Assembly: GCF_001894785.1 (NCBI RefSeq)
Contig: NZ_BCWW01000011.1
Coordinates: forward strand, 62,001-126,000
Origin: Rhodococcoides fascians NBRC 12155 = LMG 3623
GTDB lineage: Bacteria; Actinomycetota; Actinomycetes; Mycobacteriales; Mycobacteriaceae
Direction of reading: 5' to 3'
DNA length: 64,000 nt
The notes under the pieces were generated by a model. It did no database searches. It was not told where the DNA came from and saw only the letters and a list, made by a program, of their open reading frames with translations. Positions within the stretch are counted from its first letter, which is position 1. Every line of letters begins with the position of its first letter. Made by a program: the position numbers and the translations under genes. This document shows, piece by piece, positions 26,121 to 47,334 of this stretch.

Positions 26121-26181
26121 GACTCTCGGTGCCGAGCTGACCACCGCCGGCGGTGTCGAGGAGAAAGTAGTAGACCTCCCC

Positions 26182-26826: not shown

Positions 26827-26905
26827 TGTTTCCTTCCGTGGGACGCAGCCTGAGCTGCGTCGAATGAATTGAATTGCGGGATAACGGAAGAGCGAATAGC
26901 GACGG

Positions 26906-27529: not shown

Positions 27530-27694
27530 GTCGAAATTCCTCTCGTTCGGCGATGCATCAACCACACCGCAGTCGGCCCTGTCCGCGCCTCGGCTGACCG
27601 GTCGGTACGCCTCCTCCTTTCGGTCGCATCCGATGGGTCATGCGGGCCGTTCGGACGATTCGCCGTGTCGGTGCACGGCCGTACGCTTCTCCTC

Positions 27695-28900: not shown

Positions 28901-28938
28901 CGGGCAGTGTCGGAGTCGCGTTCTAAGCTCAGCGAACC

Positions 28939-29592
28939 ATGACAGCGCCAGCCGTGATCACCGTTCTGATCGTCGACGACGACCCCTTCGTTCGGCGGGG
29001 CGTGACCGACATCTTCGCGAAGACCACGGACATTTCGGTGGTCGCCGACGTGGAGGACGGTGACCAGGTGTCTGCTGCAGTGGCGGCGTACCGGCCGCAC
29101 GTGGTGCTGATGGATCTTCAGATGCGACGGGTCGGCGGACTGGATTCCACCCGCGAGTTGATGACGCTGGCCCACCCACCGAAAGTCATCGCGATGACGG
29201 CGATGGATGTGGACGATCTGGTGGTACGGGCCATCGAGGTTGGGGCGCATAGCTTCCTGAGCAAGAGCGAGGCACCCGAGACGTTCCATCAGTCGGTTCG
29301 AGCAGTGGCATCCGGCAACACGTTGTTCAGTGAGGATTCGCTCCGGAAGATTGTGGCGACGTCGATGCTGCCGGCGGCCCGGCAATCGGTGTCGATGGAC
29401 ATGCTGAGCCCACGGGAGCGAGATGTGCTGCGCATCTTGGCTACTGGTTCGACCAATGCGGACATCTCCTCTGAGCTGTACCTCAGTGAGACAACGGTGA
29501 AAACCCATATCTCCGGGATCTTCGTGAAACTCGGTGTGCGCAATCGAGTCGAGGCGGCACTGGCTGCCTTTCGGGCAGGAATGGTTACGTGA
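28939..29592 (+). CDS. Response regulator, NarL/FixJ family
   Basis: A 217-residue partner of the kinase upstream. The receiver domain shows the acidic pair VLIVDDDPF near residue 10, the phosphorylated Asp in VVLMDLQM near residue 57, the switch Thr in AMTAMD and the Lys in FLSKSE. The C-terminal LuxR-type HTH is LSPRERDVLRILATGSTNADI with SETTVKTHISGIFVKLGV. Its targets are unknown; the divergent DUF4352-VWA operon beside the kinase gene is a natural candidate. Confidence 0.92.
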   Translation: MTAPAVITVLIVDDDPFVRRGVTDIFAKTTDISVVADVEDGDQVSAAVAAYRPHVVLMDLQMRRVGGLDSTRELMTLAHPPKVIAMTAMDVDDLVVRAIEVGAHSFLSKSEAPETFHQSVRAVASGNTLFSEDSLRKIVATSMLPAARQSVSMDMLSPRERDVLRILATGSTNADISSELYLSETTVKTHISGIFVKLGVRNRVEAALAAFRAGMVT

Positions 29593-30853
29593 GCGAAATC
29601 AAGCCACGATCGCCGGCCGCCTGAGTTCGAACTGCCGTGGAACAGAATGCGCCGCCGGATTAGGAGCCAGTCTCGCGCAATATGCATCTCGACAACGGAC
29701 GGTCGATCTTGGAGCGCGAGGTATCCATTGGAGCGTTTGCTCCAAGACATCCGAATACCGCGCCAAGATCTCCTCGCGGCTTCTCGACGGCAATTCTGTC
29801 ACCGTACAAGCACACGGCACCCAACCGCGGAAAGCCCGCCCATGTCACCCCCGGAGGGACAGTACCGGGCCTCTAGTCCTTGATCTGAGTGGCTCTTCGC
29901 AAGAACCGTGCCGAAGTCGACAACAGCGACCTCGGCAGCCATGCTTTACTCGCGGGTCAAATTCGGACAGACATGCTCGAAAAGCTGCGGACAATGGTAT
30001 CGGGTGTGTGCGCAGAAATGCATTCCCATCAAGTTGACAACCAGCGCGCCTGCGGCCTTCACCACCCAAGGATCGGGTATCAACTTGGTGAGCGTGTCCA
30101 GCTCTTTGATCCAAAGCCTTAGCGTGCCAGCCCCCACGACTTCGCAGCCAGTCTCTAAGACTTCGACGCCTCGGATCACTCCCTCTTAAGGTTAAGTTCT
30201 GGCTGATGTTAATCGGTATCGACTCTCGCACCATACGGGCGGAATTGATGCGATTCTGGTGGACGAGAAACCGCACTCTCGGCCTGGGGCATCCCGTATA
30301 CGCATGCGGAGCGGGTCTGCCTCAAGAGTAGCTGGTGGGTGGTACGAGACCATCGGCATCCCGGGAGACCCGCCCTGGTTGGCGGTGCCACCCAGGAGGG
30401 GAATTTCAGTGAGCGTCCATGTGGCATCTCGATGAGCGCTACCAGCAGTGGCGAATACCATCTGCGGAGAGCGCAAGGTAGCCCCTGCGGACGGTGGAGC
30501 AGCGCGGCCGATCTAAGACCCTACAACAGTCGACGCTAAAGCATGTCTCGTTCAACCTGGGGCCACCCGCCGCGATTCTCATCACTAAGCTGTACTCATA
30601 AATCGAAACATATACGCTTGGTTCTGCTTCAATGGCAAAGGTGAACTCGATCCAATACGAAGCCGCAAAATTTCCGGCATCAATCGCGAAGGCCGGCCAC
30701 TGTCTGGTCAGTGATGCCAAGATGATCCATGCGGCCACAACCGTCGGGGTCGCACCCGCTGGATCCGGAGGAAGTCGTGCCGTTCGCACGGCATTGCACG
30801 GAAGAGCCCGAGCAGGACACCGCTCGTTGGCAGAGCTGATATGGAGAGTCGCG
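29593..30853. other. Gene-poor tract, about 1.26 kb
   Basis: No gene could be recognised here. Base composition is less GC-rich and short open frames occur on all six frames without family similarity. The best candidate, on the minus strand at 29946-30179, is listed separately. The stretch marks the transition from the ordinary chromosome on the left to the defence island on the right and may hold debris of lost genes. An open frame from ATG 30632 runs into the nuclease-like gene downstream and could be its true N-terminus. Confidence 0.5.
29946..30179 (-). CDS. Possible small orphan ORF
   Basis: A 77-residue open frame starting at GTG 30179. The protein has a plausible amino-acid make-up, including a central hydrophobic stretch WVVKAAGALVVNLMG and three cysteines with two or more histidines towards the C-terminus. 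There is no convincing ribosome site and no family resemblance. Overlapping frames on the plus strand look less protein-like. It may be a remnant. Confidence 0.2.
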   Translation of the reverse strand: MIRGVEVLETGCEVVGAGTLRLWIKELDTLTKLIPDPWVVKAAGALVVNLMGMHFCAHTRYHCPQLFEHVCPNLTRE

Positions 30854-31654
30854 ATGACCGACGCAAACCTAGTACGTCAGTCGACCGGATTTATGCGAAG
30901 CGACGGCTATATGCGTCTGGATCCGAGCGAAAAGTCCGCTGTAAGCTACTTCCTCGGAATGGTGCAAGCCAAAATCATCGCGGGTGATGTTCTGAATATC
31001 TCTCATCTCGTACACCTCGATAGCCTACCGTCGTTCTCTACAGCAACACGGTCCCGCCCCGATTTCTACGGAATTGACTGGTCACACCCGAAAACTTGTT
31101 ACTTCTTAGAAGCCAAGGGGCGAACAATGGGCTACTCGGCAAGTGTGGTCGCAAAGGCAAAAAAGCAGACCACTCTGGTGACACACCACCCAAATTTCGA
31201 CAGATTGACCGGCATCGCCTCCTTATCCTATTTCAATAGAAATGGGTTCTGGACTTCCTACCTTGAAGATCCACCCGCGGAATCAAAGACTTCTCCGAAC
31301 GCTCCTTCCGCCGGCTCTCTGTACGCGTCTTATTACACACCCATTATCGACGCAATGACCAATGCAGATGTCGACAGACAGGATTCCAGTATTAGAACGG
31401 CATACATCGATGCGTTCGACTTTCAGCTCAGCTGCCCCACGTCTGTCTTCGACCTTTTAACTAGTAAACAAAATGACACCAGCCGAAGCGAACTGCCCGA
31501 GGCGCTCAACGAAGAACTTTCACGGCCTAGGAACAAATTGGAAGGATACCAAGACGGTAGTTCAAACTTCACCGGGTCAGATGGTATTCGAATCGAATTG
31601 GGCCCCTCGTGGTCCTCGAACGCCGACAGGGCGACGGAGGGAAACGAATCATGA
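30854..31654 (+). CDS. PD-(D/E)XK nuclease-like protein
   Basis: About 266 residues, not a family I can name. A nuclease-like signature is visible: RPDFYGIDW (Asp near residue 70) followed by CYFLEAKGRT (Glu 86, Lys 88), i.e. D-x15-E-x-K. Upstream the helical LDPSEKSAVSYFLGMVQAKI offers a further Glu. ATG 30854 is chosen because GGAGAG lies 5 nt before it; ATG 30632 would add 74 residues and lacks a ribosome site. The stop overlaps the start of the next gene (ATGA), so both products are made together. Codon use is less GC-biased than in the flanking genes, a sign of acquisition by transfer. Confidence 0.65.
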   Translation: MTDANLVRQSTGFMRSDGYMRLDPSEKSAVSYFLGMVQAKIIAGDVLNISHLVHLDSLPSFSTATRSRPDFYGIDWSHPKTCYFLEAKGRTMGYSASVVAKAKKQTTLVTHHPNFDRLTGIASLSYFNRNGFWTSYLEDPPAESKTSPNAPSAGSLYASYYTPIIDAMTNADVDRQDSSIRTAYIDAFDFQLSCPTSVFDLLTSKQNDTSRSELPEALNEELSRPRNKLEGYQDGSSNFTGSDGIRIELGPSWSSNADRATEGNES

Positions 31655-32607
31655 CAATAATACTCAGAGCAGTTGCCACTGACGGAGTGGTGATGGCAAG
31701 TGATGGCCGTACGGTGCACGGCTGGCCACACACTTCCATTAGCGAATACACTGAAAAAATCAGAGATTTCAAGCTTTGCTCTTCGGGCTTCATGGTGGCA
31801 ACTTCAGGAAGGGCAACCATTGACCAGAAGCCTGTAAATGCCCACATTTCCGAAATAGTTTCGGAAATGGGTGTGATGAAATCGCTCGATACGAATCGAT
31901 TGTTTGAGAATATTCAACAACGGATGCGTTCCGCACCGCCTACAAATGAGCATGATCAGGTCCTTCAGCTCGTCATCCAAGAGTATGACCTAGGCGGCCC
32001 GACGCGGTGCACTAGGTGGGCGGTCAATTCTGACAAGACTGTCGCTTTGGACTGCGCTACAACGTTCTCTGTTCAAGGAGAGCTGGAAGGCGAGCAAACG
32101 AATGGGATTAAACACAGAGTTCAACAAATAATGGACGAGAGAGCGCTACTCCCGCTTACAAATATGCGCACGACACGAAATATAGTGAAGGGCATACTGT
32201 CGTTCGCCTATAAAGATTCGTCTACAATCGCAAAGCGGCAGCCGTTTATGTATTGGCCGGAGTTCATCGAGGCTGAACTAGAGCTTAAGGAGTACGTTAC
32301 AAAGAAATGGGGAGCTAACTGGAGTAATCTTTCAGAAAAAGCAAGACAAACTAACATTACGGATCTATCTGATTACCGCGAATTCGACAGAGATCTTCAA
32401 TCGGCCATCGATGCCGGCACGATCTCAGCAGAGGAATCGGAGTTAATCATGGCTTCCGGCGGAGCTGCAGGAGTGGGGGGTTCAGCGCTCATTACTCAGA
32501 TTGGGATGGACGGTCACGTCGATCTGGCCAATTTCGAGGAAAGGCAGGTCTTGGAGTGGGATCCGAATTTCGTAATCGAGGAAGTTCCAGGCGTTGGCGG
32601 ACACTAA
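31651..32607 (+). CDS. Proteasome-like Ntn-hydrolase protein
   Basis: A 318-residue protein beginning MTIILRAVATDGVVMASDGR. This resembles the mature start of proteasome beta subunits: Thr2 could become the N-terminal nucleophile after Met removal, Asp18 falls where Asp17 lies, and Lys36 in TEKIRDF is near the Lys33 position, followed by the SSGFMVATSGRA strand pattern. A Gly/Ala-rich segment GGAAGVGGSALI lies near residue 280. The C-terminal third has no known match for me. ATG 31651 has a GGAGGG site and overlaps the stop of the nuclease-like gene. Proteolytic activity is an inference. Codon use is AT-richer than the neighbours. Confidence 0.65.
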   Translation: MTIILRAVATDGVVMASDGRTVHGWPHTSISEYTEKIRDFKLCSSGFMVATSGRATIDQKPVNAHISEIVSEMGVMKSLDTNRLFENIQQRMRSAPPTNEHDQVLQLVIQEYDLGGPTRCTRWAVNSDKTVALDCATTFSVQGELEGEQTNGIKHRVQQIMDERALLPLTNMRTTRNIVKGILSFAYKDSSTIAKRQPFMYWPEFIEAELELKEYVTKKWGANWSNLSEKARQTNITDLSDYREFDRDLQSAIDAGTISAEESELIMASGGAAGVGGSALITQIGMDGHVDLANFEERQVLEWDPNFVIEEVPGVGGH

Positions 32608-34156: not shown

Positions 34157-34357
34157 ATGTCTGAGCCTTGGCTGTCTGCCGACGATATCGCCGCCCACCT
34201 GGGCGTCACGAAGGACACGGTCTACTCGTGGATCGCCGATAAGGCGATGCCCGCTCACAAGATCGGCCGTCTCTGGAAGTTCCAAGCGAGCGAGGTCGAC
34301 GAGTGGGTCCGCAATGGCGGAGCAGCTGTCCCAGAGGCGCAGCCCCCACCCAAATGA
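34157..34357 (+). CDS. Excisionase/MerR-like helix-turn-helix protein at the head of the BREX locus
   Basis: A 66-residue DNA-binding protein that is nearly all one winged HTH: WLSADDIAAHLGVTKDTVYS, then the turn KAMPAHKIGRLWKFQASEVDEWV. This is the DNA-binding domain, excisionase family, type. ATG 34157 starts the domain; GTG 34115 would add 14 residues. It sits 82 bp upstream of brxA in the same direction. BREX loci often carry a regulator at this place (commonly a WYL-type protein, BrxR), so this small protein may control the operon. Alternatively it is a leftover of a mobile element. Confidence 0.75.
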   Translation: MSEPWLSADDIAAHLGVTKDTVYSWIADKAMPAHKIGRLWKFQASEVDEWVRNGGAAVPEAQPPPK

Positions 34358-34439
34358 CGGCACTGATCATCGTCAGGCCGGGATGTCTGACGGTCGCGAT
34401 ATCTTGAACGACTTTGTTGGTGGCCAGAAGGAGGTGCAC

Positions 34440-35054
34440 ATGATGATGGACACGTCTCGGGGTTCGCGCTACGCACTGTCGTTCACCAGCGGTGCGCTTC
34501 TCATGCGCGAAGCGCTCATCGCTGCTCCGATGTACCTCCGCGAGCACGACTGGATGAAGGTCCGCCAGCTCATTGATGACGACAACCTGCTCCAGTCTCG
34601 AACCGTTGCTACCGGACGGCGGCTCGCTCGCGAGGTTGCCCAGCGTCTTTCCGTCCTGAGCGACGGCGAACTCGAATTAGTAATCGACGCGACGACATCA
34701 GAGCGCGGTCACCTGTTGTGGACTGCCGCATGCCGCCGCTACAGCCTGATCGGCGAGTTCGCCGAAGAGGTCCTTCGTGAGCGCTTTCTTCTCCTGACAG
34801 CCACGCTCGATTACGACGACTTCGACGGGTTCATCCGGAGCAAGGCGCTCTGGCACGAAGAGGTCGCGAACCTCAAGAGCTCCACCCTGCAGAGGCTCCG
34901 CTCCAACCTGTTTCAGATGCTCGTCGAGGCAGTGCTTCTCACGGATGACGGCCGAATCGTCCCCACCGTGCTGTCATCTCGCGTCTCCGACGTGCTGTAT
35001 GCCCGCGCTCCGAGCGACATTCGCTTCTTCCCCACGGCAGTGGGTGTGCAATGA
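34440..35054 (+). CDS. brxA: BREX protein BrxA (DUF1819)
   Basis: A 204-residue BrxA, a small mostly helical protein required in type 1 BREX phage defence; family members have been reported to bind DNA. Landmarks are RYALSFTSGALLMREALIAA near the N-terminus, ATGRRLAREVAQRLSVLSDG near residue 55, and the C-terminal ALWHEEVANLKSSTLQRLRS. The ATG at 34440 follows a near-perfect AGGAGG five bases upstream. The stop overlaps the brxB start (ATGA). Order brxA-brxB-brxC-pglX-pglZ-brxL is the standard type 1 layout. Confidence 0.93.
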   Translation: MMMDTSRGSRYALSFTSGALLMREALIAAPMYLREHDWMKVRQLIDDDNLLQSRTVATGRRLAREVAQRLSVLSDGELELVIDATTSERGHLLWTAACRRYSLIGEFAEEVLRERFLLLTATLDYDDFDGFIRSKALWHEEVANLKSSTLQRLRSNLFQMLVEAVLLTDDGRIVPTVLSSRVSDVLYARAPSDIRFFPTAVGVQ

Positions 35055-35650
35055 GCAGCGTCGACCTAGCCAAGCAAGAGAAGCACCTGTTCGCAGTGCT
35101 CAGCAGTAAGCGGTTTCTCCAGATGGAGGGCCTCGGCAACGAAGTGCCGTTCTTCATCTACCCATATCCGCCGGAGGACGCTCTTGCGGTCGCGCAGATC
35201 AAGAAGCGGGTCAAGAACAGACTGAGCCAGATGGGCATCAACGTTCGCGAGGTCAACCTCTACGACCTCTCGGTCGAGATCCTCAAGGAACGCGGCGTGT
35301 GGGAACGCGTACTCGCCGCGGAGCCCGACCAAGACAAAGACGACTTCCGCGAGCTCCTCCAAGGCATGCTGGATCCGCAGCTCCACCTCGCGCCCGCCAT
35401 TCGCTCCAAGGTCGACGACGGCGACTTCGACATCTTCTTCCTCACCGGAATCGGCGAGGTCTTCCCGTACATCCGGTCACACAACGTGCTGAACAACCTC
35501 CAGAGCGTCGTGACCGGCAAACCAATGCTCATGTTCTTCCCCGGCCGCTACGAGCAGTCCGACACCCTCGGATCCACGCTCGTGCTCTTCGGTCGGCTGA
35601 AGGACGATCAGTACTACCGGGCCAAGAACATCCTGGAACAGGAAGCGTGA
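35051..35650 (+). CDS. brxB: BREX protein BrxB (DUF1788)
   Basis: A 199-residue BrxB of normal length. Visible family features are the PFFIYPYPPEDALAVAQ stretch near residue 33, VNLYDLSVEILKERG near residue 65 and, near the end, MLMFFPGRYEQSDTLGST. BrxB is essential for type 1 BREX defence, but its biochemical role is not settled. It overlaps brxA by 4 nt and its stop lies at the brxC start, so the three are translationally coupled. Confidence 0.93.
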   Translation: MSSVDLAKQEKHLFAVLSSKRFLQMEGLGNEVPFFIYPYPPEDALAVAQIKKRVKNRLSQMGINVREVNLYDLSVEILKERGVWERVLAAEPDQDKDDFRELLQGMLDPQLHLAPAIRSKVDDGDFDIFFLTGIGEVFPYIRSHNVLNNLQSVVTGKPMLMFFPGRYEQSDTLGSTLVLFGRLKDDQYYRAKNILEQEA

Positions 35651-35655
35651 CAACG

Positions 35656-38600
35656 ATGTTGCTGAACGAGATCTTCGCTAAGGACGTGCAACGTCCGATC
35701 GAGGGCGTCATCAAGGCGGACGACACTGCGCATCTGCGTACCGAGGTGGACGAGTACGTCCTGACCAATGAGGCAGCCAAAGGCCTTGAGCTTCTACTCG
35801 AGGCCTACACGAATTACACCAACGCCAACGGGGTGTGGATCTCAGGCTTCTTCGGTTCGGGTAAGTCGCACCTTCTGAAGATGCTCGCTCACCTTCTCGG
35901 CGACGTCGAGGGCCAGACGTTCGACCGCACCAAGGCCACGGAAAGCTTCCGCGCCAAGGCAGCTGGCGCTTTCCTGCCCGCCCTTCTGACAAAGGCCGAG
36001 CGCATCCCTGCCAAGAGCCTGCTGTTCAACATCGATCAGAAGGCCACGCTCATCACGAAGGATCAGACCGACGCCTTGCTGAAGGTGTTCGTGAAGGTCT
36101 TCGACGAGAGTCGCGGTTACTACGGAAACCAGGGCCACGTGGCTCGCTTCGAACGAGACCTCGACAACCGCGGTCAGTACGTAGCGTTCAAGGGCGCGTA
36201 CAGGCGAATCTCTGGCCGTGACTGGACCCAGGGGCGCGAGGAGGGCGTTCTCGAAGAACCCAACGTCGCCGCGGCCTACGCCGAGGTGAGCGGTCAGGGA
36301 GGAGCACCGACCAACATCCTCACCAAGTACCGCAACGAGTACTCGGTTTCCATCGAGGACTTCGCCGAGGAAGTCACCACGTGGCTCAACAAGCAGTCCG
36401 ACGGCTTCCGGCTCAACTTCTTCGTGGACGAGGCGGGCCAGTTCATCGGCTCGAACACCCACTTGATGCTCAACCTCCAGACGATTGCGGAGAGCCTCAA
36501 CACCAAGTGCCAGGGCCGCGCGTGGGTGTTCGTAACCTCGCAGGAGGACATGGACAAGGTCGTCGGAGACCGAACCAAGCAACAGGGCAACGATTTCTCG
36601 AAGATCCAGGCGCGCTTCAAGACTCGCGTGAAGCTCACCAGCGCCGATGTCGAAGAAGTCATCCGCAAACGCCTGCTGGAGAAGAACGCGGCAGGTGCCG
36701 CCGCACTCAGCGTCATCTACAACAAGGAGGCGGCCAACTTCAAGACCCTGTTTGACTTCGTCGATGGGGCGAAGGGCTACCGCAACTACACCGACGAAGC
36801 TCACTTCGTCGGTACCTATCCGCTTGTGAGCTACCAGTTCCCGCTGTTTCAAGCGGCAATCGAAGGCATCTCCGATCACAACGTTTTCGAGGGGCGCAAC
36901 AGCTCGGTGGGCGAGAGGTCGATGCTCGGCGTCGTCCAGCAGGTCGCCAAGGATATCGGCGACGTGGAGGTCGGTCGCCTGGCCACCTTCGACCACATGT
37001 TTGCCGGTATCCGAGCGTCGTTGAAGTCGGCGGCTCAGCGCTCCATCGACGTCGCTGAGCGAAACCTCGACAACTTGCTCGCGATCCGCCTCCTCAAGGC
37101 ACTCTTCCTCGTCAAGTACGTCGAGAGCTTCCGGGCCACACCGCGCAACCTGACCGTGCTCGTCTATGACCGCTTCGGCCTCGATCTGCCCGCGTTGTCG
37201 GCGGAGGTCAAGGAAGCGCTCACGCTGCTGGAGGCGCAGACCTACGTCCAGCGTAACGGCACCATCTTTGAGTACCTGACCAATGAAGAGCAGGTCATCG
37301 AAGAAGAGATTAAGAACGTCGACTTCGACTCCTCCGAGGTGAGCGCACGACTCTCCAGGATGCTCTCTGGCGACGTCATCAAGACCAACAAACTCCGCTA
37401 CGCAAAGAACGGTCAGGACTTCCCATTCGGCTTCAAACTCGACGACCAGATCCACGGCCCCCAACGGGAACTTTCAATTCACTTCATCACACCGGAGTAC
37501 CCGTTCACGGCAGACGAGACGCGGATGCACAGCGCCGGGAAGGACGAACTGCGCGTCATCCTCGAGCCAGACGCTCGCGTGCTCGCAGATCTCCGCCTAC
37601 TAATCAAGACGGAGAAGTACACGAAACGCAAGCAGACCAGCGCACTTTCGGCAATCGAGGATCAGATCCTTCGATCCAAAGCTGCTCAGAACGTCGACCG
37701 CGAGAAGGAACTCATTGGGCGTCTCCGTCGCGCCGTGGGTGAAGCTGCGCTGATCATCAACGCCACCGACGTCTCCTCGAGCTCGCAGGACGGGCTTGCC
37801 CGCGTGACCGACGGTTTCCAGGACCTCGTCAGCCGCACCTACACTCAGTTGAAACTGCTCGACGGCGTTACCTATGCCGAGCAGCAGGTGGCCGGGGCGG
37901 CTAATCCGGACAGCGGCCTCTTCGACCCCGCGGCGTGGACTAAGCTCGCCATTCCCGGCGAGGAGGTGCTGTCGTTCGTTCTCCGCAAGGAGGCACAAGG
38001 TGAGCAGGTCACCGTCAAGGCGATCGTCGACGCCTTCCAGGCAAAGCCCTACGGGTGGGACCTCGCCTCGATCGAAGTATTCGTGGCCTTCCTGATCGGT
38101 GCCTCGAAGGTGACCCTGACAGTGGACGGTAACGTCCTCAAGCGAAGCGAAGTGGCGGCTGTGCTTCGGAATACGCAGAAGCATTCGCACGCAGTCGTCG
38201 CTCCGCAGAAAACGTTCGACGAACGTAAAGTCACCGCCTTCCGAAAGTTCTGCACGGACTTCTTCGACGATGCCAACGCGCCAAAAGATCCCCTCGAGCT
38301 GGCCCGCTACGGTGCTAACAGGCTCAAGGTCAAGCTCGGCGAACTAAAGGCCGTCGCCACTGGCTCGAAGTACCCGTTCGTGGAGCAACTCCACGGCCCC
38401 ATCGGTTTGCTCGACCAGGCAGCAGGCAAACCCAACGAGTGGTACCTCACCGACTTCAATCTTGGCGATGAACTACTCGACGCCAAGGAAAGCACCGCCG
38501 ACCCGATCCAGTCGTTCCTCAACGGGGCGCAAAGTGCGATCTATGACGAGGCCGTAGCACTGCTCGCCACACACAGCAGCAACCTCAGGTATCTGCCCGA

Positions 38601-39123
38601 CGGCAGTGACAAGAGTGTCCGGTCTGGGCTCGCGGACCCAAATGCTTTCCGGGGCAACCGGATGGCGCAGCTCAAGAAGACCACCGACGAACTTCGCAGC
38701 CTCATAGACGACGTCATCGCTGCCAACCGGGAGAGTGTCGCCACCTCGATCGAAGGACGCAGGATCGAGCTTGTCGCCGGCGCCTATTACGAGAAGGCCA
38801 CCGCTGAAGCCCAACAGGGCGTCGTCCGGCGGATCGACCTGACGCTCTCGCGAATCGGCGCAGAGAGCCAGGTGGCCCTCATTCTGCAGATCGGAACCGA
38901 CTTCGAGGCCAGCGTGTATCCCTCGCTGGTCGACCAACTGGCCGCGTCCCAACAGGCCAGCGGGGACGGTCCGCCCCCGAAGCAGACGGTGGCGGTCAAG
39001 TCCGTCGTTGTGCCAGGAGCCACTGGCGTCCTCGAAACAGAGGACGACGTCGACAACTACCTCACCGAGCTCCGTGAAGCGCTGCTCCAGACCCTAGACG
39101 ACGGAAAGCGAATCTCACTCTGA
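35656..39123 (+). CDS. brxC: BREX ATPase BrxC
   Basis: A 1155-residue P-loop ATPase (PglY/BrxC family), the core motor of the BREX complex. It starts MLLNEIFAKDVQRPIEGVIK, very close to the family start, with Walker A GFFGSGKSHL at residues 64-73 and a Walker B-like NFFVDEAGQFI near residue 255. The frame is open upstream to 35299 inside brxB; I use ATG 35656 with AGGAAG upstream, while GTG 35647, overlapping the brxB stop, would add three residues. The stop overlaps the pglX ATG by one base. Length and order are normal for type 1 BREX. Confidence 0.93.
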   Translation: MLLNEIFAKDVQRPIEGVIKADDTAHLRTEVDEYVLTNEAAKGLELLLEAYTNYTNANGVWISGFFGSGKSHLLKMLAHLLGDVEGQTFDRTKATESFRAKAAGAFLPALLTKAERIPAKSLLFNIDQKATLITKDQTDALLKVFVKVFDESRGYYGNQGHVARFERDLDNRGQYVAFKGAYRRISGRDWTQGREEGVLEEPNVAAAYAEVSGQGGAPTNILTKYRNEYSVSIEDFAEEVTTWLNKQSDGFRLNFFVDEAGQFIGSNTHLMLNLQTIAESLNTKCQGRAWVFVTSQEDMDKVVGDRTKQQGNDFSKIQARFKTRVKLTSADVEEVIRKRLLEKNAAGAAALSVIYNKEAANFKTLFDFVDGAKGYRNYTDEAHFVGTYPLVSYQFPLFQAAIEGISDHNVFEGRNSSVGERSMLGVVQQVAKDIGDVEVGRLATFDHMFAGIRASLKSAAQRSIDVAERNLDNLLAIRLLKALFLVKYVESFRATPRNLTVLVYDRFGLDLPALSAEVKEALTLLEAQTYVQRNGTIFEYLTNEEQVIEEEIKNVDFDSSEVSARLSRMLSGDVIKTNKLRYAKNGQDFPFGFKLDDQIHGPQRELSIHFITPEYPFTADETRMHSAGKDELRVILEPDARVLADLRLLIKTEKYTKRKQTSALSAIEDQILRSKAAQNVDREKELIGRLRRAVGEAALIINATDVSSSSQDGLARVTDGFQDLVSRTYTQLKLLDGVTYAEQQVAGAANPDSGLFDPAAWTKLAIPGEEVLSFVLRKEAQGEQVTVKAIVDAFQAKPYGWDLASIEVFVAFLIGASKVTLTVDGNVLKRSEVAAVLRNTQKHSHAVVAPQKTFDERKVTAFRKFCTDFFDDANAPKDPLELARYGANRLKVKLGELKAVATGSKYPFVEQLHGPIGLLDQAAGKPNEWYLTDFNLGDELLDAKESTADPIQSFLNGAQSAIYDEAVALLATHSSNLRYLPDGSDKSVRSGLADPNAFRGNRMAQLKKTTDELRSLIDDVIAANRESVATSIEGRRIELVAGAYYEKATAEAQQGVVRRIDLTLSRIGAESQVALILQIGTDFEASVYPSLVDQLAASQQASGDGPPPKQTVAVKSVVVPGATGVLETEDDVDNYLTELREALLQTLDDGKRISL

Positions 39124-42100
39124 TGGAGACTGCACCACTCAAATCCTTCGCGACGTGGGCGCGCACCGCACTCATTCGCGAAGTCACCGCGCGCATCGCC
39201 GTCGTGCTAGCACCGGCGTCACCGGAGCGAGTCGAGCAGCCCACAATCGTTTCCGCCCTTGAGAAATCCGTCAACGCCGCAGGGGGTGGCGACAAGGGTC
39301 GGTCGGCCGTGGCGGACCGGGTCGCCTACACCTGGTTCAACCGAATCATCGCTCTGCGCTTCATGGACGCCAACGGCTACACCGGTATCGGAGTCGTCTC
39401 GCCCCAAATGGGAGTTGACGTTGGCCAGCCAGAGATCCTCGCCGAGGCGAAGCGAGGCAACATCGACCCCGAAGTAGTCGGCCAGAAGGCTCGTGAGACC
39501 GTCACGGCGCTGCTCAACGGAACCCGACGCAGTGACGACCCGCAGGGCGAGACCTATGCGCTGCTGCTCGCCGAGTACTGCCGCTACTGGAACCGCTCCA
39601 TGCCGTTCATGTTCGAGCGTGCAGGCGACTTCACTGAGTTGCTCATCCCGGCCAACCTCCTCGCCGACGAGTCGGTGCTGAACCGTGCGACGAAGGTCCT
39701 GACATCGGACGTGTGCCAGGACGTCGAGGTGATCGGCTGGCTGTACCAGTTCTACATCTCGGAGCGGAAAGATGAGGTCTTTGCCGGCTTCAAGAAGAAC
39801 AAGAAGGCTGGCGCGGATGAAATCCCGGCTGCCACTCAACTTTTCACACCGCACTGGATCGTTCGATATCTTGTCGAGAACTCACTCGGGCGACTGTGGA
39901 TGCTGAACCGCCCGAACTCGCGCCTGATCGACCAAATGGAGTACTACATTGCTCCTGTCGATGTAGAAACCGACTTCCTCAAAATCGATAGCCCCGAAGA
40001 GCTCAAAGTCATTGATCCCGCCTGCGGTTCGGGTCATATGCTCACCTACGCTTTCGACCTGTTGTGGGCGATCTACGAGGACGAAGGCTACGCCCCATCT
40101 CAGATCCCCGGACTGATCCTTACAAATAATCTTTACGGCACTGAGATTGATCCACGGGCCGGGGCGCTCGCCGCCTTCGCGCTCACGATGAAGGCCCGCG
40201 CGAGGCAGCGGACGTTTTTCAACAATCAGGTCGAGCCAAATGTTTGCGTAATCGATCCGATCTCGTTCGACCTCAACGAGATCGACATTCTCCTCAGTTC
40301 GGGCGACGATCGCCAAGAGCAGATTTCCTTCTGGAACCAATTCGCGGATGCCGACACTTTCGGATCTCTGATCGAGCCCAACGCCGACCAGACTTCTGAA
40401 CTCGCGCGTAATCTTGAAACCCTCGACGATAGCGGAGACCTGTTCAATGCTGACGTCATCTGCCGGGCCGAACGCGTCGTACGTCAGGCTGAATTCCTCG
40501 CGACGACGTACGCAGTCGTCATCACGAATCCTCCGTATATGGGTACCGGGAACATGAGCGGCTCACTATCTTTGTGGCTAAAGGCGAACTATCCAAGCAC
40601 GCGCTTCGATCTAATGACTGCGTTCATGGCTAGAGCGTTGTCACTTTGTTTAAAAGGAGGCGTGGTCGGCATGATCAATCTGCCTTCTTGGATGTTCTTG
40701 AGTTCGTACATAACGATGCGGTCAGAGTTACTAAAACGGGCCTGCATTGCTTCGATGCTTCACCTCGGCCGAGGGGTCTTTGGCTCCGATTTTGGCTCGG
40801 TCGCATTCGTGATTTGCCGTCAACCGCCAGTGGCAGACACTGGGGGTTCGTACCGCCGACTGTTCGATACAAGCTCCGAAGTCCGGTCCAACTCGGTGAT
40901 AGAGGCGCGCTTTCAGGAGCGTAACCGCGATCGATACGAGGTTCGACAAAAGGACCTTGAATCCCTTCCAGGGACGCCGATTGCCTACTGGCTGTCCCCA
41001 GCCATGCGAACAGCATTTCGTGTCGGCCAGCCGATGATCGAAGTGGCAGAGCCGCGCCAGGGGATGGCCACGGCGGAAAACGCCCGGTTCCTGCGCCTCT
41101 GGTTCGAGGTTTCAGGAGATAGGTTTGGTCGCGGTTGCACCCGTGAAGTCGCCCGCACAAGTTCCTTCAAGTGGTTCCCGTACAACAAGGGCGGGGAGTA
41201 TCGGAAGTGGTACGGAAATCATGAATGGGTTGTGAACTGGCAGAACGATGGAGCTGAGCTCTACGCTGAACGACCCAAGGCTGTTGTTCGAAGCCCGCAA
41301 ATGTACTTCCGCCCATCGGTCTCGTGGTCCAAGGTTGGAATCGGGATTCCGGCGTTTCGTTACTTCCCTGCCGGGTTCCTATTCGACGTGGCAGGCACGT
41401 CAATCTTCGCCTCTGAAGAGCGACTGCTTCAGATAGCTGCCATCTGTAACTCGAATGTAGTTCAGGCGATGCTGGCCGCAACGTCACCCACCTTGAATGT
41501 GGAGGTGGGAACTATCGCCCAGCTTCCTGTGGTTGAGGTCTCAAGGACTGTGACCGAGGCGGCCCACGAGTTGATCGGGATTCATCGCGATGACTGGAAT
41601 AGGCAAGAAAACTCCTGGGATTTCTCAACTCTCGACCTTGTGGAGACGAGGGAGCTGACGGTTAATGGAGCCGTCCAGGCAGTTCTCAAGTTCGGGCGTC
41701 GCCTGGCCGATGAGGTCCGCACTCTCGAAACCGAGATGAACGCCGAGATTGCACAGGCATACGGCCTGGAGGAAGAAGTCAACCCGGACGTACCTCTTAA
41801 GCGCGTCACACTTAATGCCAATCCTGAGTTCCGCTACGGGGTGGGGCTCACTCAGACTGAGCTTGCGGCCCGTTTCGCAACGGACCGAGTGGGCGCCCTC
41901 ATCTCATACGCCGTGGGTTGCATGTTTGGTCGCTACAGCCTGGACGAGCCGGGCCTGATCCTTGCAGACCAAGGCGCCACGTTGCAGGACTATCTAGCCA
42001 AGATTCCGTCGCCGTCGTTCGTGCCGGACGCAGACAATGTGCTCCCCGTCGTGGACGGTGATTGGTTCGAGGACGACATCGTTGCCCGGTTCCGGCATTT

Positions 42101-42611
42101 TCTTCGTGCGGCTTTTGGTGAAAAGCATTTCGAGGAAAACCTTCGGTTCGTTACCGAGGCGCTCGGGGTGAAGGAGTTGCGCGACTACTTCGTGAAGTCC
42201 TTCTACAAAGACCACATCCAGCGGTATAAGAAGCGTCCGATCTACTGGTTGTTCTCCAGTCCGAAAGGCTCGTTCAACGCGCTGATCTACATGCATCGTT
42301 ACACGCCATCGACGGTCTCGACGGTGCTCAATGAGTACCTGCGCGAGTACAAGGCCAAGCTGGGGTCCAGCCTTCAGCATCATGAGCGCTTCGCCTCGGG
42401 CGGCGGTCCACCTCGGGAATCAGCTGCGGCTCAGAAAGAAGTGGACCGGCTCCGCAAAGTTCTGCTGGAGCTCGACGAGTACGAGCACGATGTGATGTAT
42501 CCCTTGGCAACCAAACAGATCGAGATCGATCTGGATGACGGCGTGAAGACAAACTACCCGAAATTTGGTGCCGGGCTGAAAAGGATTATCGGGTTGGATG
42601 TGGCGGAATGA
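39123..42611 (+). CDS. pglX: BREX DNA adenine methyltransferase PglX (BrxX)
   Basis: A 1162-residue N6-adenine methyltransferase that marks host DNA at a non-palindromic BREX site and is needed for defence. The SAM motif VIDPACGSGHMLTYAFD is near residue 296 and the catalytic motif NPPYMG near residue 470; the C-terminal half contains the target-recognition region. The full length is intact, with no frameshift or repeat tract of the kind that causes phase variation. It starts on the brxC stop (TGATG). The target sequence cannot be read from the protein. Confidence 0.94.
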   Translation: METAPLKSFATWARTALIREVTARIAVVLAPASPERVEQPTIVSALEKSVNAAGGGDKGRSAVADRVAYTWFNRIIALRFMDANGYTGIGVVSPQMGVDVGQPEILAEAKRGNIDPEVVGQKARETVTALLNGTRRSDDPQGETYALLLAEYCRYWNRSMPFMFERAGDFTELLIPANLLADESVLNRATKVLTSDVCQDVEVIGWLYQFYISERKDEVFAGFKKNKKAGADEIPAATQLFTPHWIVRYLVENSLGRLWMLNRPNSRLIDQMEYYIAPVDVETDFLKIDSPEELKVIDPACGSGHMLTYAFDLLWAIYEDEGYAPSQIPGLILTNNLYGTEIDPRAGALAAFALTMKARARQRTFFNNQVEPNVCVIDPISFDLNEIDILLSSGDDRQEQISFWNQFADADTFGSLIEPNADQTSELARNLETLDDSGDLFNADVICRAERVVRQAEFLATTYAVVITNPPYMGTGNMSGSLSLWLKANYPSTRFDLMTAFMARALSLCLKGGVVGMINLPSWMFLSSYITMRSELLKRACIASMLHLGRGVFGSDFGSVAFVICRQPPVADTGGSYRRLFDTSSEVRSNSVIEARFQERNRDRYEVRQKDLESLPGTPIAYWLSPAMRTAFRVGQPMIEVAEPRQGMATAENARFLRLWFEVSGDRFGRGCTREVARTSSFKWFPYNKGGEYRKWYGNHEWVVNWQNDGAELYAERPKAVVRSPQMYFRPSVSWSKVGIGIPAFRYFPAGFLFDVAGTSIFASEERLLQIAAICNSNVVQAMLAATSPTLNVEVGTIAQLPVVEVSRTVTEAAHELIGIHRDDWNRQENSWDFSTLDLVETRELTVNGAVQAVLKFGRRLADEVRTLETEMNAEIAQAYGLEEEVNPDVPLKRVTLNANPEFRYGVGLTQTELAARFATDRVGALISYAVGCMFGRYSLDEPGLILADQGATLQDYLAKIPSPSFVPDADNVLPVVDGDWFEDDIVARFRHFLRAAFGEKHFEENLRFVTEALGVKELRDYFVKSFYKDHIQRYKKRPIYWLFSSPKGSFNALIYMHRYTPSTVSTVLNEYLREYKAKLGSSLQHHERFASGGGPPRESAAAQKEVDRLRKVLLELDEYEHDVMYPLATKQIEIDLDDGVKTNYPKFGAGLKRIIGLDVAE

Positions 42612-42696
42612 CTCGAATCGCAGCCTTGGTGGTGAGCAACCCCCTAAATGGGACCGCTCACGTTGGTAAACCGTCGCGGCGAATTCGAGGTCTTCC

Positions 42697-45186
42697 ATGA
42701 GTGGCATTCGTGATCACCTGGTGCGTCGATTCGAGGGAACACGGGTCGTGTTCTGGCATGACCCCGATGGCCAGTACACCGCAGACTTGGACGGTCTCGA
42801 TCTGGTGGATGTGGAGACGCTCTGCGTCGCAGACAACGAGTACGGCATCAAGCAGCGGTTGCTGCACGACGAGCCAGCGGGCAAGTTTCTCGTCTACCGC
42901 TCTGGGCAGGTGCCTAGCGGGATCGGCAACTGGCTACTCGATCTGGAGCTGGCCTACGGAGTATTCACTGCGGATCGCACGTCCCTGGTCGCTCAAGAAC
43001 TCGGTCTCACTGGGAACGGCATCGCTGAGGTCGTCCAGGCGCATGAGAAGTTCTTCAATGCCGGTAAACGCATTCACAGTCTAAAGGGGCTGCTGAAACC
43101 TGACGACGACCCGACAGTCGTGCGCGCCAAGATGACCGCGGTGGTGCTGGGCCTTAAGGATTCGCACAGTCTGTTGGAGGTCACCCGGACGCTTCTGATG
43201 GAGAACGCCAAGGGCATCCGAACGAAGTACGACGCCCTCGTCGACTACGCACTGGACGACTTCTATTGGCGCGGCGTCGCTTCCATCTATGGATACGAGT
43301 CTCCGACTCCGAGCATCGACGACTTCGTGTTGTGGACCTTTCGCAAGGCGATCGAAGGCTTTGCGTCGGAACGACCGGGCGGCCTGCAGAACATACAGCT
43401 CGATTTCGCCAGCCTCCGCAACGACCGGCGCAGCCAGGAGTCGCTCGCCACGCTCGCCAAGCGCGCGGCTGTCGACCTCGACTACGCCTCCTCCATCGAA
43501 GACGCGAGCTTCCGCGACCTCGCAGCGGTCGACCTATTCGAAGAGACTGACCAGAAGATCCTCAGCGACCTAGCACGCGCGGTGGCCGAGCGAACCGTCA
43601 CCGCGCGAGAAGTCGCCGAGGTCGTGCGTGCGCGGCAGAGCAGCGTATGGATCGATGGTTATAAGCAGCTCTATACGGCGATCGCCTGCGCGTCAGAGTT
43701 GCTGACCGAACTGGTATCGCTGAACCTCGTTGCGCAGTCGTTCGACGAGGCACTGGAGCGGTACCGCCGCGAATGGTTCCGTATCGACCAACTCTATCGG
43801 CAGTTCACCTTCGCCTATCGCACCTACGAAGGCCCGCATCCGCTTGGACCGCTTCGTGACCGAGTTGAGAAGCGCTACACCAACACATTCGTCTACGAAC
43901 TGGGCAATGCTTGGCAGCAGAAGGTCGACGATACGAGCGCGTGGACGTCGTCCGTCCTGCGATCGCAAACCTCCTTCTACGCCGACTATGTCGAGCCGCT
44001 GGTGCGCGACGGCGACAAGAAGGCGGTCGTCATCATCTCCGATGCGCTGCGTTACGAGGTGGCCGACGAGCTCGGCTCCCGCATCCGCCAGGAGGATCGT
44101 TTCGACGCCTCACTCGACGCGGTCCTCGGTGTCCTGCCTAGTTACACACAATTGGGAATGGCAGCACTGCTGCCTCACACCACCCTCAAGCACTCCGGTG
44201 ACGCGAAGATAGTGCTGGCGGACGACCAGCCCACTAACGGAACAGTCCTACGCGGCAAAATCCTTAAGCACGTTGGTGGTTCGGCGATCCAGGCCGAGGA
44301 CTTCAAGGCCTTGAGTGCTGACGAGCGCCGGGAGCTATTCAAAGCCAACCGGGTACTGTACGTCTACCACAACCGCATCGACGCCACCGGCGACAAGCCC
44401 GGCACCGAGCGGCAGGTCTTCGAGGCCGTCGAGGACTCCCTGCGCGACATCGTCGACCTCGTGAAGAAGCTGGCCAACGCCAACGCCACGAACATCTTCA
44501 TCACGGCCGACCACGGATTCCTCTTCCAAGACGACGCCCTCGCTGATTCGTTCTTCCTCTCGACGAAGCCGCAGGGCGACGACATCAAGGTGGTCAACCG
44601 CCGCTACATCCTCGGGCGCGGCCTCAAGATCGACATCGCCTTCAACACGTTCACCTCTGCACAACTCAACCTCGGCAGCGACTTCGAGGTGCAGATCCCC
44701 AAATCGATTCATCGACTCCGACTACCCGGTGGCGGCACGCGATTCGTCCACGGCGGCTCCACACTTCAGGAAGTCGTCGTACCGGTTCTCGCTGTCAACA
44801 AGAAGCGCAAGACCGACACCCGCTTGGTCAACGTCGAGGTGTGGCCGGAGTCCGACAAGATCACCACGGGGCAGGTCGTCGTTCGCCTGTTCCAGTCCGA
44901 GCCGGTGAGCGACAAGGTCCAACCGCGCACCGTCCGTGCTGGCCTCTACGTCGGGGAAACCCTGATCTCGAACCAAATTGAATTGGCTTTCGATCAGTCC
45001 TCAACCGATAAGCGGGACCGCTACCAGAGCGCTCACATGTTGCTTAGCCAGGACGCCAACGACTACAACAACCGCGCGGTTGATTTCCGAATTGAAGAGC
45101 GCATCCCCAATACCAACCAATGGCGCGTCTACGCGAAGGCTATTTACACGTTGAAGCGTTCGTTTGCCTCGGATTTCGACTTCTAA
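42697..45186 (+). CDS. pglZ: BREX phosphatase-domain protein PglZ (BrxZ)
   Basis: An 829-residue PglZ protein of the alkaline phosphatase superfamily, a core BREX component. It begins SGIRDHLVRRFEGTRVVFWH, with the family-typical FWHDPDG, and has the metal-site segments VVIISDALRYEVADELGSRI near residue 445 and FITADHGFLF near residue 602. ATG 42697 follows a GAGG site. An 85-bp gap from pglX holds no gene. The length fits type 1 PglZ. Confidence 0.94.
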   Translation: MSGIRDHLVRRFEGTRVVFWHDPDGQYTADLDGLDLVDVETLCVADNEYGIKQRLLHDEPAGKFLVYRSGQVPSGIGNWLLDLELAYGVFTADRTSLVAQELGLTGNGIAEVVQAHEKFFNAGKRIHSLKGLLKPDDDPTVVRAKMTAVVLGLKDSHSLLEVTRTLLMENAKGIRTKYDALVDYALDDFYWRGVASIYGYESPTPSIDDFVLWTFRKAIEGFASERPGGLQNIQLDFASLRNDRRSQESLATLAKRAAVDLDYASSIEDASFRDLAAVDLFEETDQKILSDLARAVAERTVTAREVAEVVRARQSSVWIDGYKQLYTAIACASELLTELVSLNLVAQSFDEALERYRREWFRIDQLYRQFTFAYRTYEGPHPLGPLRDRVEKRYTNTFVYELGNAWQQKVDDTSAWTSSVLRSQTSFYADYVEPLVRDGDKKAVVIISDALRYEVADELGSRIRQEDRFDASLDAVLGVLPSYTQLGMAALLPHTTLKHSGDAKIVLADDQPTNGTVLRGKILKHVGGSAIQAEDFKALSADERRELFKANRVLYVYHNRIDATGDKPGTERQVFEAVEDSLRDIVDLVKKLANANATNIFITADHGFLFQDDALADSFFLSTKPQGDDIKVVNRRYILGRGLKIDIAFNTFTSAQLNLGSDFEVQIPKSIHRLRLPGGGTRFVHGGSTLQEVVVPVLAVNKKRKTDTRLVNVEVWPESDKITTGQVVVRLFQSEPVSDKVQPRTVRAGLYVGETLISNQIELAFDQSSTDKRDRYQSAHMLLSQDANDYNNRAVDFRIEERIPNTNQWRVYAKAIYTLKRSFASDFDF

Positions 45187-45198
45187 GGAAGGTACGTG

Positions 45199-47334
45199 AT
45201 GAGCGAAGTGGGTGAGCTAAGCGAGGAGGCCATGGACGACAGGGCTCCTGATCCACTGGCGCAGTCGGCGCTCGACCGCAAGATCAACGAGCACTTTGCC
45301 GGAGTCGTCGTGCGCAAGGACTTGGTCAAGGCGGTCAAGGGCAACGCAATCGTGCCGTCATATGTGCTGGAATATCTACTCGGTCAGTACGCCGCCTCTG
45401 ACGACGAAGCCACCATCCAGGCCGGCATCGACACGGTCCGGCAGATCCTTGCCGATCACTACGTTCACCGGAATCAGTCCGAGCTGGTGAAGTCGACGAT
45501 CCGAGAACGCGGACGCTACAAGATCATCGACAAAGTCACCGTCACCCTCAACGACAAGGACGACGTTTACGAAGCCACCTTCTCCAACCTCGGTATCAAG
45601 CAGGTTCTCGTCGAGCCGTCCACCATCACGGCCCATCCCAAGCTACTTGTCGGCGGCGTCTGGTGCATCTGCGACATCGAGTATTTCCACAGCGACAGCG
45701 CAAAGGTCGTGCCCTGGATCCTTGGGTCGATCAAACCTATCCAGCTGTCCAACTTCGACTTCGACGGCTACATCGCGGCGCGACGCGAGCTTACTACCGA
45801 CGAGTGGATCGATCTGTTGATCCAGTCGATCGGATTTAACCCGGAATTGTTCGGCCGGCGCGCCAAACTGATCCAGCTCGTTCGTCTCATCCCGTTCGTC
45901 GAGCGCAACTACAACCTCGTTGAGCTCGGGCCGAAAGGCACCGGAAAATCGCACATCTTCTCGGAATTCTCTCCCCACGGCATGCTCATCTCCGGCGGCG
46001 AGGTCACCGTTCCCAAGCTCTTCGTCAACAACTCCAACGGCCGCCTCGGCCTGGTCGGCTACTGGGATGTCGTCGCGTTCGACGAGTTCGCCGGCAAGAA
46101 GAAGCGCACCGACAAAGCGCTCGTGGACATTTTGAAGAACTATATGGCGAACAAGTCGTTCTCCCGCGGCGTCGAGACTCTCGGTGCCGAGGCCTCGATG
46201 GTGTTCGTCGGCAACACGTCACACACCGTGCCCTACATGCTGAAGAACTCCGACCTCTTCGACGAGCTGCCCGAGAGCTACCACGACTCGGCCTACCTCG
46301 ACCGTTTGCACTACTACATCCCCGGTTGGGAAGTCGACACCATCCGCGGCGAGATGTTCTCCGACGGTTACGGATTCGTCGTCGACTACATCGCTGAAGT
46401 TCTCAAGTCGATGCGAGACGCCGACTACTCGGACCGCTACCAGCAGCACTTCACGCTCGGCTCCGACATCTCCACCCGTGACCGCGACGGCATCCACAAG
46501 ACGTTCTCCGGGCTGTCGAAGATCCTCTTCCCACACGGGGAAGCCACGAAGGACGAGGTCGAAGAGATCCTCCGGTTCGCCATCGAAGGCCGTAAGCGGG
46601 TCAAGGACCAGATCCTGCGGATCGACACCACAATGGCCAACGTCAAATTCGGCTACCTCGATAAGGCTGAGGAGTGGCACGCCGTCACTACACTCGAAGA
46701 GGACGAGTACCCGAGGTATTACCACCGGCTTCAGTCCGAAGTCGACGACAACAAGGGCTCGCCGGGCAGCTCGATCCATGAGCCCGAAGTGCCGGATACG
46801 CCACCTGTCAATACCGCGCCAAAACCGGAGCGACTCTTTGAGGGGCACCTCGAATTTCAGGAGAACCAGCGCGGCGTCTCCTACGAGACGTTGCTACTCC
46901 CGTACCTCCGTGGCGCAAGCGAGATCACCGTCGTCGATCCGTACATCCGGCTACCGCACCAAGGCCGCAACCTTGTCGACCTTCTCGCACTGCTGGCTTC
47001 AGCGAAGGACCCGGCCGACGAAATCTCGGTGACATTGGTGACGAAGGAAGACACCGGCGAGTTCCAGAGGCAGCATCTGTTGATGCTCAAGGACATTCAG
47101 GAGGGGGCAGCTTCAGTCGGGATCAAGTTCAACGTCGAGTGGGACGCGTCGATCCACGACAGATCGATCCGAGCGGACAACGGCTGGAAGATCCTCCTCG
47201 GTCGGGGCCTCGACATCTTCCAGAAGGGATCCGGCAGCCAGTTCGATATCGGTGCTCGGCGTCAGGAGTTCCGGCAGGTCGTTGCATTTGGGATCACCTA
47301 CATCCGACAATCGGAGAGCGAGCACCATGCCTGA
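45199..47334 (+). CDS. brxL: BREX AAA+ protein BrxL, variant with a MITD1-like C-terminus
   Basis: A 711-residue BrxL. The N-terminal part is typical (KINEHFAGVVVRKDLVKAVK, SYVLEYLLGQYAASDDE) and is followed by the AAA+ core with Walker A LGPKGTGKSHIF near residue 245 and GYWDVVAFDEFAG near residue 290. Beyond residue about 520 I see no Lon-type Ser-Lys protease domain. Instead, after a Pro-rich linker, residues about 550-711 contain VDPYIR and HDRSIRADNGWKILLGRGLD, closely resembling the phospholipase D-like C-terminal domain of MITD1. ATG 45199 has AAGGAAGG 6 nt upstream. Its last 8 nt overlap the SIR2 gene. Confidence 0.92.
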   Translation: MSEVGELSEEAMDDRAPDPLAQSALDRKINEHFAGVVVRKDLVKAVKGNAIVPSYVLEYLLGQYAASDDEATIQAGIDTVRQILADHYVHRNQSELVKSTIRERGRYKIIDKVTVTLNDKDDVYEATFSNLGIKQVLVEPSTITAHPKLLVGGVWCICDIEYFHSDSAKVVPWILGSIKPIQLSNFDFDGYIAARRELTTDEWIDLLIQSIGFNPELFGRRAKLIQLVRLIPFVERNYNLVELGPKGTGKSHIFSEFSPHGMLISGGEVTVPKLFVNNSNGRLGLVGYWDVVAFDEFAGKKKRTDKALVDILKNYMANKSFSRGVETLGAEASMVFVGNTSHTVPYMLKNSDLFDELPESYHDSAYLDRLHYYIPGWEVDTIRGEMFSDGYGFVVDYIAEVLKSMRDADYSDRYQQHFTLGSDISTRDRDGIHKTFSGLSKILFPHGEATKDEVEEILRFAIEGRKRVKDQILRIDTTMANVKFGYLDKAEEWHAVTTLEEDEYPRYYHRLQSEVDDNKGSPGSSIHEPEVPDTPPVNTAPKPERLFEGHLEFQENQRGVSYETLLLPYLRGASEITVVDPYIRLPHQGRNLVDLLALLASAKDPADEISVTLVTKEDTGEFQRQHLLMLKDIQEGAASVGIKFNVEWDASIHDRSIRADNGWKILLGRGLDIFQKGSGSQFDIGARRQEFRQVVAFGITYIRQSESEHHA

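Follow-up and report, generated by a model that had tools for sequence, protein, structure and literature searches.

Two overlapping genes at the edge of a BREX island in Rhodococcoides fascians encode a putative PD-(D/E)XK nuclease (gene 1) and a putative proteasome-like Ntn hydrolase (gene 2), and each belongs to a family without a name in the libraries searched. Both lie in the stretch of 64,000 nucleotides analysed here, which we call the window. They are probably two accessory defence-island genes of separate descent that are encoded together at this site. A joint function is possible. An earlier note on this DNA, which likewise had put no name to either family, proposed one undescribed two-gene system of a defence or toxin type; the relatives of the two genes do not support that proposal.

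The gene pair and its island

Both open reading frames are found on the plus strand and are intact over 340 and 318 codons (Table 1). Several features reported in the earlier note are present as described. The genes overlap by ATGA, gene 2 begins MT and has Asp18 and Lys36, and gene 1 contains RPDFYG...FLEAKGRT, with Asp70, Glu86 and Lys88 when residues are counted from the ATG at 30854. Codon use is also less GC-rich than in the neighbours, as the note had it. In 1-kb windows GC is 0.495-0.528 over 30500-32499, which spans the pair, compared with 0.64-0.66 over 26000-28999 and 0.55-0.64 over BREX. At third codon positions, gene 1 has a GC of 0.58 and gene 2 one of 0.52, compared with 0.76 for the response regulator gene and 0.70-0.81 for BrxC, PglX, PglZ and BrxL. 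Codon bias of gene 1 is weak, and no sigma-70-like promoter pattern was found within 29590-34400.

The response-regulator region was compared with 37 same-genus genomes, which yielded seven relatives with a match of at least 90% over the whole query. All seven diverge just after the LuxR-type response regulator gene, the match ending at 29595-29621, and therefore the pair comes first in a variable hotspot, where it is followed by a Gabija helicase remnant, BREX and a SIR2-HerA gene pair. Beyond this left edge the only further match is one of 241 bases at 71% between one relative (L090) and window positions 33689-33929. Four proteins of the same-genus relatives were a type I restriction enzyme, a ThsA/SIR2-like protein, one with a weak match and one with no match. 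A comparison of 13-14 kb from each relative with the remainder of the contig did not reveal the right edge of the hotspot. The placement at the edge of a BREX island is thus borne out, with the BrxA frame 1.7 kb downstream of gene 2. We considered the pair as part of BREX itself and rejected this, since a decayed gene and 1.7 kb of DNA separate it from the operon and the pair has no PADLOC match.

Table 1. Coordinates of the gene pair, predicted active-site codons and surrounding features (window positions)
Feature	Position	Strand	Remark
Left edge of variable hotspot	29593..29621		End of the match in 7 same-genus relatives, at 29595-29621
Gene 1, putative PD-(D/E)XK nuclease, 340 aa	30632..31654	+	Likely start 30632 ATG or 30641 GTG
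Alternative ATG of gene 1, used in the earlier note	30854..30856	+	Would drop about 74 conserved N-terminal residues
Asp144 codon (earlier Asp70)	31061..31063	+	Invariant in 9/9 aligned members including gene 1 itself
Glu160-Ala161-Lys162 codons (earlier Glu86, Lys88)	31109..31117	+	Glu and Lys invariant in 9/9
ATGA overlap, gene 1 stop and gene 2 start	31651..31654	+	Possible translational coupling
Gene 2, putative proteasome-like Ntn hydrolase, 318 aa	31651..32607	+	
Thr2 codon, predicted N-terminal nucleophile after Met removal	31654..31656	+	
Asp18 codon (proteasome Asp17)	31702..31704	+	By alignment
Lys36 codon (proteasome Lys33)	31756..31758	+	By alignment
Ser52-Gly53 codons, proposed oxyanion-hole glycine (proteasome Gly47)	31804..31809	+	Invariant in 7/7; Gly47 equivalence by eye
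GajB-like (Gabija) UvrD helicase C-terminus remnant, 97 residues	32764..33054	-	Between pair and BREX
Type 1 BREX operon: BrxA, BrxB, BrxC, PglX, PglZ, BrxL	34314..47334	+	PADLOC models
SIR2 and HerA genes	47252..50850	+	Directly after BREX

One coordinate of the earlier note needs revision, namely the start of gene 1, which it had placed at 30854. The frame is open upstream of this position. In the long form, residues 1-90 can be aligned with the relatives P0013 (E 1e-8) and P0009 (E 2e-4) from two other actinobacteria, these E-values referring to a set of seven sequences, and Phe14 and Gly39 of the N-terminal stretch are invariant in a seven-row alignment. Because homology extends upstream of 30854, gene 1 probably starts near 30632, and Asp70, Glu86 and Lys88 become Asp144, Glu160 and Lys162. 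A start at 30854 was rejected as the main one, homologues aligning across the extra residues. A shorter form from 30854 is possible, because GGAGAG, a ribosome-binding-like sequence read by eye, precedes that ATG.

Predicted folds and active sites

The fold of gene 1 is likely that of a nuclease, judging from a structure model built on six aligned sequences (pLDDT 74.8, pTM 0.79). Residues 98-201 of the model have the alpha-beta-beta-beta-alpha-beta order of the PD-(D/E)XK core, with helices at 98-119 and 170-180 and strands at 125-128, 145-149, 155-163 and 191-201. Asp144 borders strand 145-149, and Glu160 and Lys162 sit inside the adjacent strand 155-163. These three residues and Gly163 are invariant in 9/9 aligned members of the family.

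Structural comparison gave modest matches. Foldseek returned nothing at E <= 0.001 with the gene 1 model, the best match being EcoRV (E 0.27). With VIA-align the rows, mostly of this superfamily, scored Z 4.2-5.9; none reaches Z 8, and the tool calls this range common. They include a Holliday junction resolving enzyme, 1ob8 (Z 5.9, rmsd 6.9, 104 aligned), LHK-Exo (Z 5.9, rmsd 3.8, 107 aligned), Hjc 1gef (Z 5.5, rmsd 3.1, 94 aligned), SSO0001 (Z 5.3, rmsd 4.5, 106 aligned) and EcoRV (Z 5.0, rmsd 4.9, 122 aligned). Among the first 35 rows there is one protein without a known function, and nearly all of them are, by superfamily, PD-(D/E)XK enzymes, including Holliday junction resolvases, LHK-Exo, SSO0001, SPARDA, EcoRV and cap-snatching endonucleases. 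Lower rows (Z 4.2-4.5) hold the kinase PRPK, aligned to residues 227-330, and a tRNA splicing endonuclease, and the PRPK rows fall only slightly short of those of the nucleases. The short form of gene 1 had no match at the curated cut-off in Pfam or NCBIfam and none in PADLOC; the long form had no cut-off match in Pfam (one weak match) and none in PHROGs. Neither the short form nor the gene-1 profile matched PDB sequences.

The PD-(D/E)XK reading of the earlier note is therefore upheld by the predicted model, its element order, the conserved residues and the best, if modest, structural matches. Gene 1 has the predicted core fold and the D...ExK motif in common with PD-(D/E)XK nucleases such as Holliday junction resolvases, LHK-Exo, EcoRV, SSO0001 and the SPARDA nuclease, but differs in having no HMMER relation to them, extra N- and C-terminal regions and no named family. 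Like Shedu and the accessory PD-(D/E)XK effectors of BREX loci, it would be a stand-alone nuclease adjoining BREX, as far as the available part of the description goes (PMC12839542), whereas its short form has no PADLOC match. The same source, in the part available, ranks PD-(D/E)XK enzymes first in prevalence among the effectors of BREX and related systems, and its main text contains neither proteasome nor NTN as a term (PMC12839542).

Gene 2 is likely a proteasome-like Ntn hydrolase. The assignment rests on sequence, because the structure model of gene 2, made from five sequences, failed (pLDDT 36.4); of the two structure predictions that the earlier note had called for, that of gene 1 gave a PD-(D/E)XK-like core and that of gene 2 gave nothing usable. 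Gene 2 and six relatives form a set of seven members. Thr follows an ATG or GTG in 7/7, and Asp18, Gly19, Arg20, Lys36 and Ser52-Gly53-Arg54 are invariant in all of them. Earlier in-frame starts are present in four loci (L006, L007, L010 and L023), where a start with Thr second is the simplest reading of the sequence. In an N-terminal alignment Thr, Asp and Lys stay in register across the seven members, five MT-type proteins and seven PrcB proteins. A profile search of the PDB returned a proteasome beta subunit as best match, in the expected register (E 0.12).

Profile comparison by hhalign points the same way. The gene-2 profile scored 27.05 against 22 PrcB sequences, a value reached by 0/100 and 0/200 column shuffles, and 27.7 against a second proteasome-like family of five sequences, exceeded by one of 200 shuffles. 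Against a combined template the score was 34.5 (E 0.0004 for one comparison), reached by none of 200 shuffles, whose maximum was 23.2. HH probabilities against these templates are low (5.5, 7.5 and 34%). With default settings the aligned part is 23-34 columns and covers Thr1 and Asp17, with PrcB also Lys33. Global hhalign of gene 2 found nothing, and relaxed gap settings extended the alignment to 157-212 columns, though unconvincingly so past the N-terminus.

Gene 2 had no cut-off match in Pfam or NCBIfam (three NCBIfam matches lay far below) and none in PADLOC or PHROGs; as a single protein it matched no PDB sequence. The Pfam proteasome model matched none of the seven members. PF00227 matched two adjacent loci elsewhere in the window's own genome, read as prcB and prcA, and did not match gene 2. 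It also matches an actinobacterial proteasome-like family that starts (M/V)TVVLA (L073-L077) and is related to PrcB by hhalign at 95% probability.

These observations could be read otherwise: gene 2 would not be an Ntn hydrolase at all, and its N-terminal likeness would be a chance match of a short beta-hairpin. The short default alignments with their low probabilities, the one shuffle in 200 that beat the score against one of two template families, the failed model and the missing Pfam proteasome matches all fit such a chance likeness. It is nevertheless unlikely to be the explanation, given a Thr at position 2 after a possible start codon in every member, a Thr, Asp and Lys register identical to that of the MT-type and PrcB proteins, the combined template that no shuffle equalled and a proteasome beta subunit as best PDB profile match. 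We thus retain the likely Ntn assignment, and at the level of sequence the earlier note's alignment to proteasome beta subunits stands.

Gene 2 has in common with 20S proteasome beta subunits and proteasome-like homologues the predicted Thr1, Asp17 and Lys33, a proposed oxyanion glycine and a strand-strand N-terminus, going by the accessible part of a 2021 survey by Fuchs, Alva and Lupas (PMC8665760). It differs from them in having no Pfam proteasome match and in starting directly with MT, without a propeptide. The survey, as far as available, describes 22 new proteasome-like families, which it calls uncharacterised, with conserved Thr/Ser1, Asp17, Lys33 and Gly47 and with insertions at particular sites; neither defence nor defense is a word of its main text (PMC8665760). 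Insertions after the first helices are common to the gene-2 family and, in the portion seen, several proteasome homologues (PMC8665760). Unlike proteasome beta subunits and their homologues, five of the six gene-2 relatives carry a Cys-rich insert, which is reduced in G587; the window's gene 2 is without it and has an insertion of its own. In the relatives at L006 1649-2728, L007 6001-7077 and L008 8001-9092 this insert follows the first helices, is about 80 residues long and is possibly metal-binding. Among the literature matches listed, judged by titles, abstracts and term counts, no paper ties a proteasome-like or Ntn hydrolase to phage defence.

Relatives of the two genes and their neighbours

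The gene-2 family is rare and was seen only in Rhodococcus-type genomes among those searched. As a single protein, gene 2 matched 1/397 genomes of the order, namely its own. Profiles matched 4/37 genomes of the genus, 1/198 of the phylum (again its own) and 7/401 of the family, the last including two weak matches with stops that were left uncounted. Those two candidates, G575 and G487, were rejected as members for weakness and stops in frame; on re-scanning, L027 gave nothing at E <= 1 and L028 gave E 0.002-0.003. A scan of 84,980 genomes produced 98 pattern stretches, of which two were confirmed, against the window's gene 2 only, so that distant members would escape.

Six gene-2 relatives were opened: three on plasmids (Rhodococcus sp. 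DMU1, R. erythropolis PR4 and R. jostii RHA1), two on contigs of Rhodococcus sp. 06-235-1A and EPR-157, which share the genus group of the window's genome, and G587. The plasmid relatives come from six matching plasmid records, three of which were opened, the other three matching the same part at about the PR4 identity. Records of the window's own locus (L001, L002, L014, L018, L019 and similar) were left out when relatives were counted, and duplicate loci were paired as L011/L009, L012/L010, L013/L008 and L033/L003. One relative (L009, 2281-11366) has a Hachiman-like HamB on one side and, on the other, a CBASS cyclase with a 2TM effector, with strong PADLOC matches beside it. A possible HamA-like gene beside this HamB was noticed by eye and has no PADLOC match. 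L010 has, by eye, the same convergent cyclase-like frame; these two loci closely resemble each other and are not independent cases. In L023 the relative adjoins a type I RM cluster, a strong PADLOC match. Near the relatives in L006 and L008 there are weak PADLOC matches only, and among the proteins scanned in L007 a chance-level one only (E 0.008, Cas9 model).

Gene-1 profiles matched 4/296 genomes of the phylum and 6/394 of the class, in overlapping samples that include the own genome, and at E <= 0.01 gene 1 has matches in 107 plasmid records. Of the nine loci opened, four are on plasmids, three from these records and one from a further search (Streptomyces L003, Rothia L004, an Agrobacterium Ti plasmid L005 and Azospirillum L029), and five are genomic (L024, L025, L026, L039 and L040). 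PADLOC matches lie beside seven of the nine relatives, the neighbours having been picked by eye and without a background rate. They are type I RM in L025, whose first gene, a methylase, lies 33 nt downstream in the same direction; Gabija in L026; an Orf5/HEC-06-like protein in L039; an OLD/GajA-like protein in the same direction in L040; Vsr in L024; Lit in L005; and an Abi protein matching PD-T4-5 in L004. One neighbour was scanned in each of L003 and L029, with no PADLOC match. The relative in L024 (G925) is interrupted by stops. On the Ti plasmid (L005, 5833-6788) the gene-1 relative is seemingly split into two overlapping frames, the second of which resembles the C-terminal part of the Azospirillum protein, both read by eye.

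One system or two genes brought together

The pair has so far been seen in the window's genome only. Gene 1 was beside none of the six gene-2 relatives and gene 2 beside none of the nine gene-1 relatives, in flank scans that mostly spanned 3-9 kb, with one shorter side in each of L006 and L010. Searching whole genomes or records gave the same answer. Gene 1 was found in 0/6 with a gene-2 relative (four genomes and two plasmid records), the own genome serving as positive control. Gene 2 was found in 0/10 with a gene-1 relative (six genomes and four plasmid records, two of one strain); this run had no positive control of its own, and the same seven sequences had found members in the genus search. 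No other constant partner was seen by eye beside the gene-2 relatives. Phage records matched neither gene, and 109 and 42 pattern stretches from viral contigs yielded none that was confirmed. The earlier note had set co-occurrence elsewhere as one test of its two-gene system. Such co-occurrence in unrelated genomes, which a conserved system requires, was not found in any genome or record searched, in what is a small sample of two rare families.

What the two proteins might do follows from their predicted sites. The gene 1 nuclease would most likely cut DNA in a metal-dependent manner through Asp144, Glu160 and Lys162, and it may act as a solo effector or alongside various partners, its family lying near different defence systems in different bacteria. 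For gene 2, methionine aminopeptidase should expose Thr2, and Thr2, Asp18 and Lys36 would then form a threonine-protease active site without propeptide autocleavage. The ATGA overlap implies that synthesis of the two may be coupled and roughly matched at this site. The nuclease and peptidase activities, a role in phage defence and co-translation are all inferred.

A true two-component defence or toxin-type system would go further, with the Ntn peptidase controlling the nuclease, either by cleaving an inhibitory part of it or by degrading it when phage is absent, or with both enzymes attacking phage DNA and protein together. The overlap, the shared low GC and the BREX setting fit such a system. 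So do the varied same-direction neighbours of gene-1 relatives, as an effector with exchangeable controllers might have, among them the type I RM methylase gene in L025 and the OLD/GajA-like gene in L040, and so does the paired gene 2, with its own insertion in place of the Cys-rich one of its relatives. The absence of co-occurrence in all nine and six opened relatives, and of gene 1 or any other constant partner beside a gene-2 relative, makes it unlikely. A rare true pair is still conceivable, because both families are rare and were sampled only. Rather unlikely, too, is a more specific form of it, in which a PD-(D/E)XK nuclease and a proteasome-like threonine peptidase that controls it would be translated from one message as a two-enzyme unit of phage defence, and the nuclease family would swap controllers between loci (an Ntn peptidase here, type I RM or an OLD-type ATPase elsewhere). 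No unfoldase gene was seen among the immediate neighbours. The genes might also be the debris of a decaying island, non-functional at the hotspot edge, next to a decayed Gabija helicase fragment, with a relative broken by stops (G925), weak codon bias in gene 1 and no promoter pattern; this we consider improbable, as both frames are intact and keep all predicted catalytic residues.

Separate descent, the explanation we favour, has its own difficulties. Two overlapping genes that look foreign and are alike in their low GC might equally well have arrived as a unit. The lack of a significant Foldseek match, the VIA-align scores below Z 8, the failed gene 2 model and the low HH probabilities count against the fold assignments, and the weak matches in L006 and L008, with none that counts in L007, and the choice of neighbours by eye count against the defence association. 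Since neither family depends on the other elsewhere, the two genes were most likely brought together at the level of the island and do not represent an ancient machine of two parts.

Two unnamed protein families thus recur beside defence systems. One would be a proteasome-like peptidase lineage occurring in defence islands of Rhodococcus, and the other a nuclease family with changing defence neighbours. For proteasome-like families that the survey, in its available part, calls uncharacterised (PMC8665760), the defence-island setting would make one of them testable.
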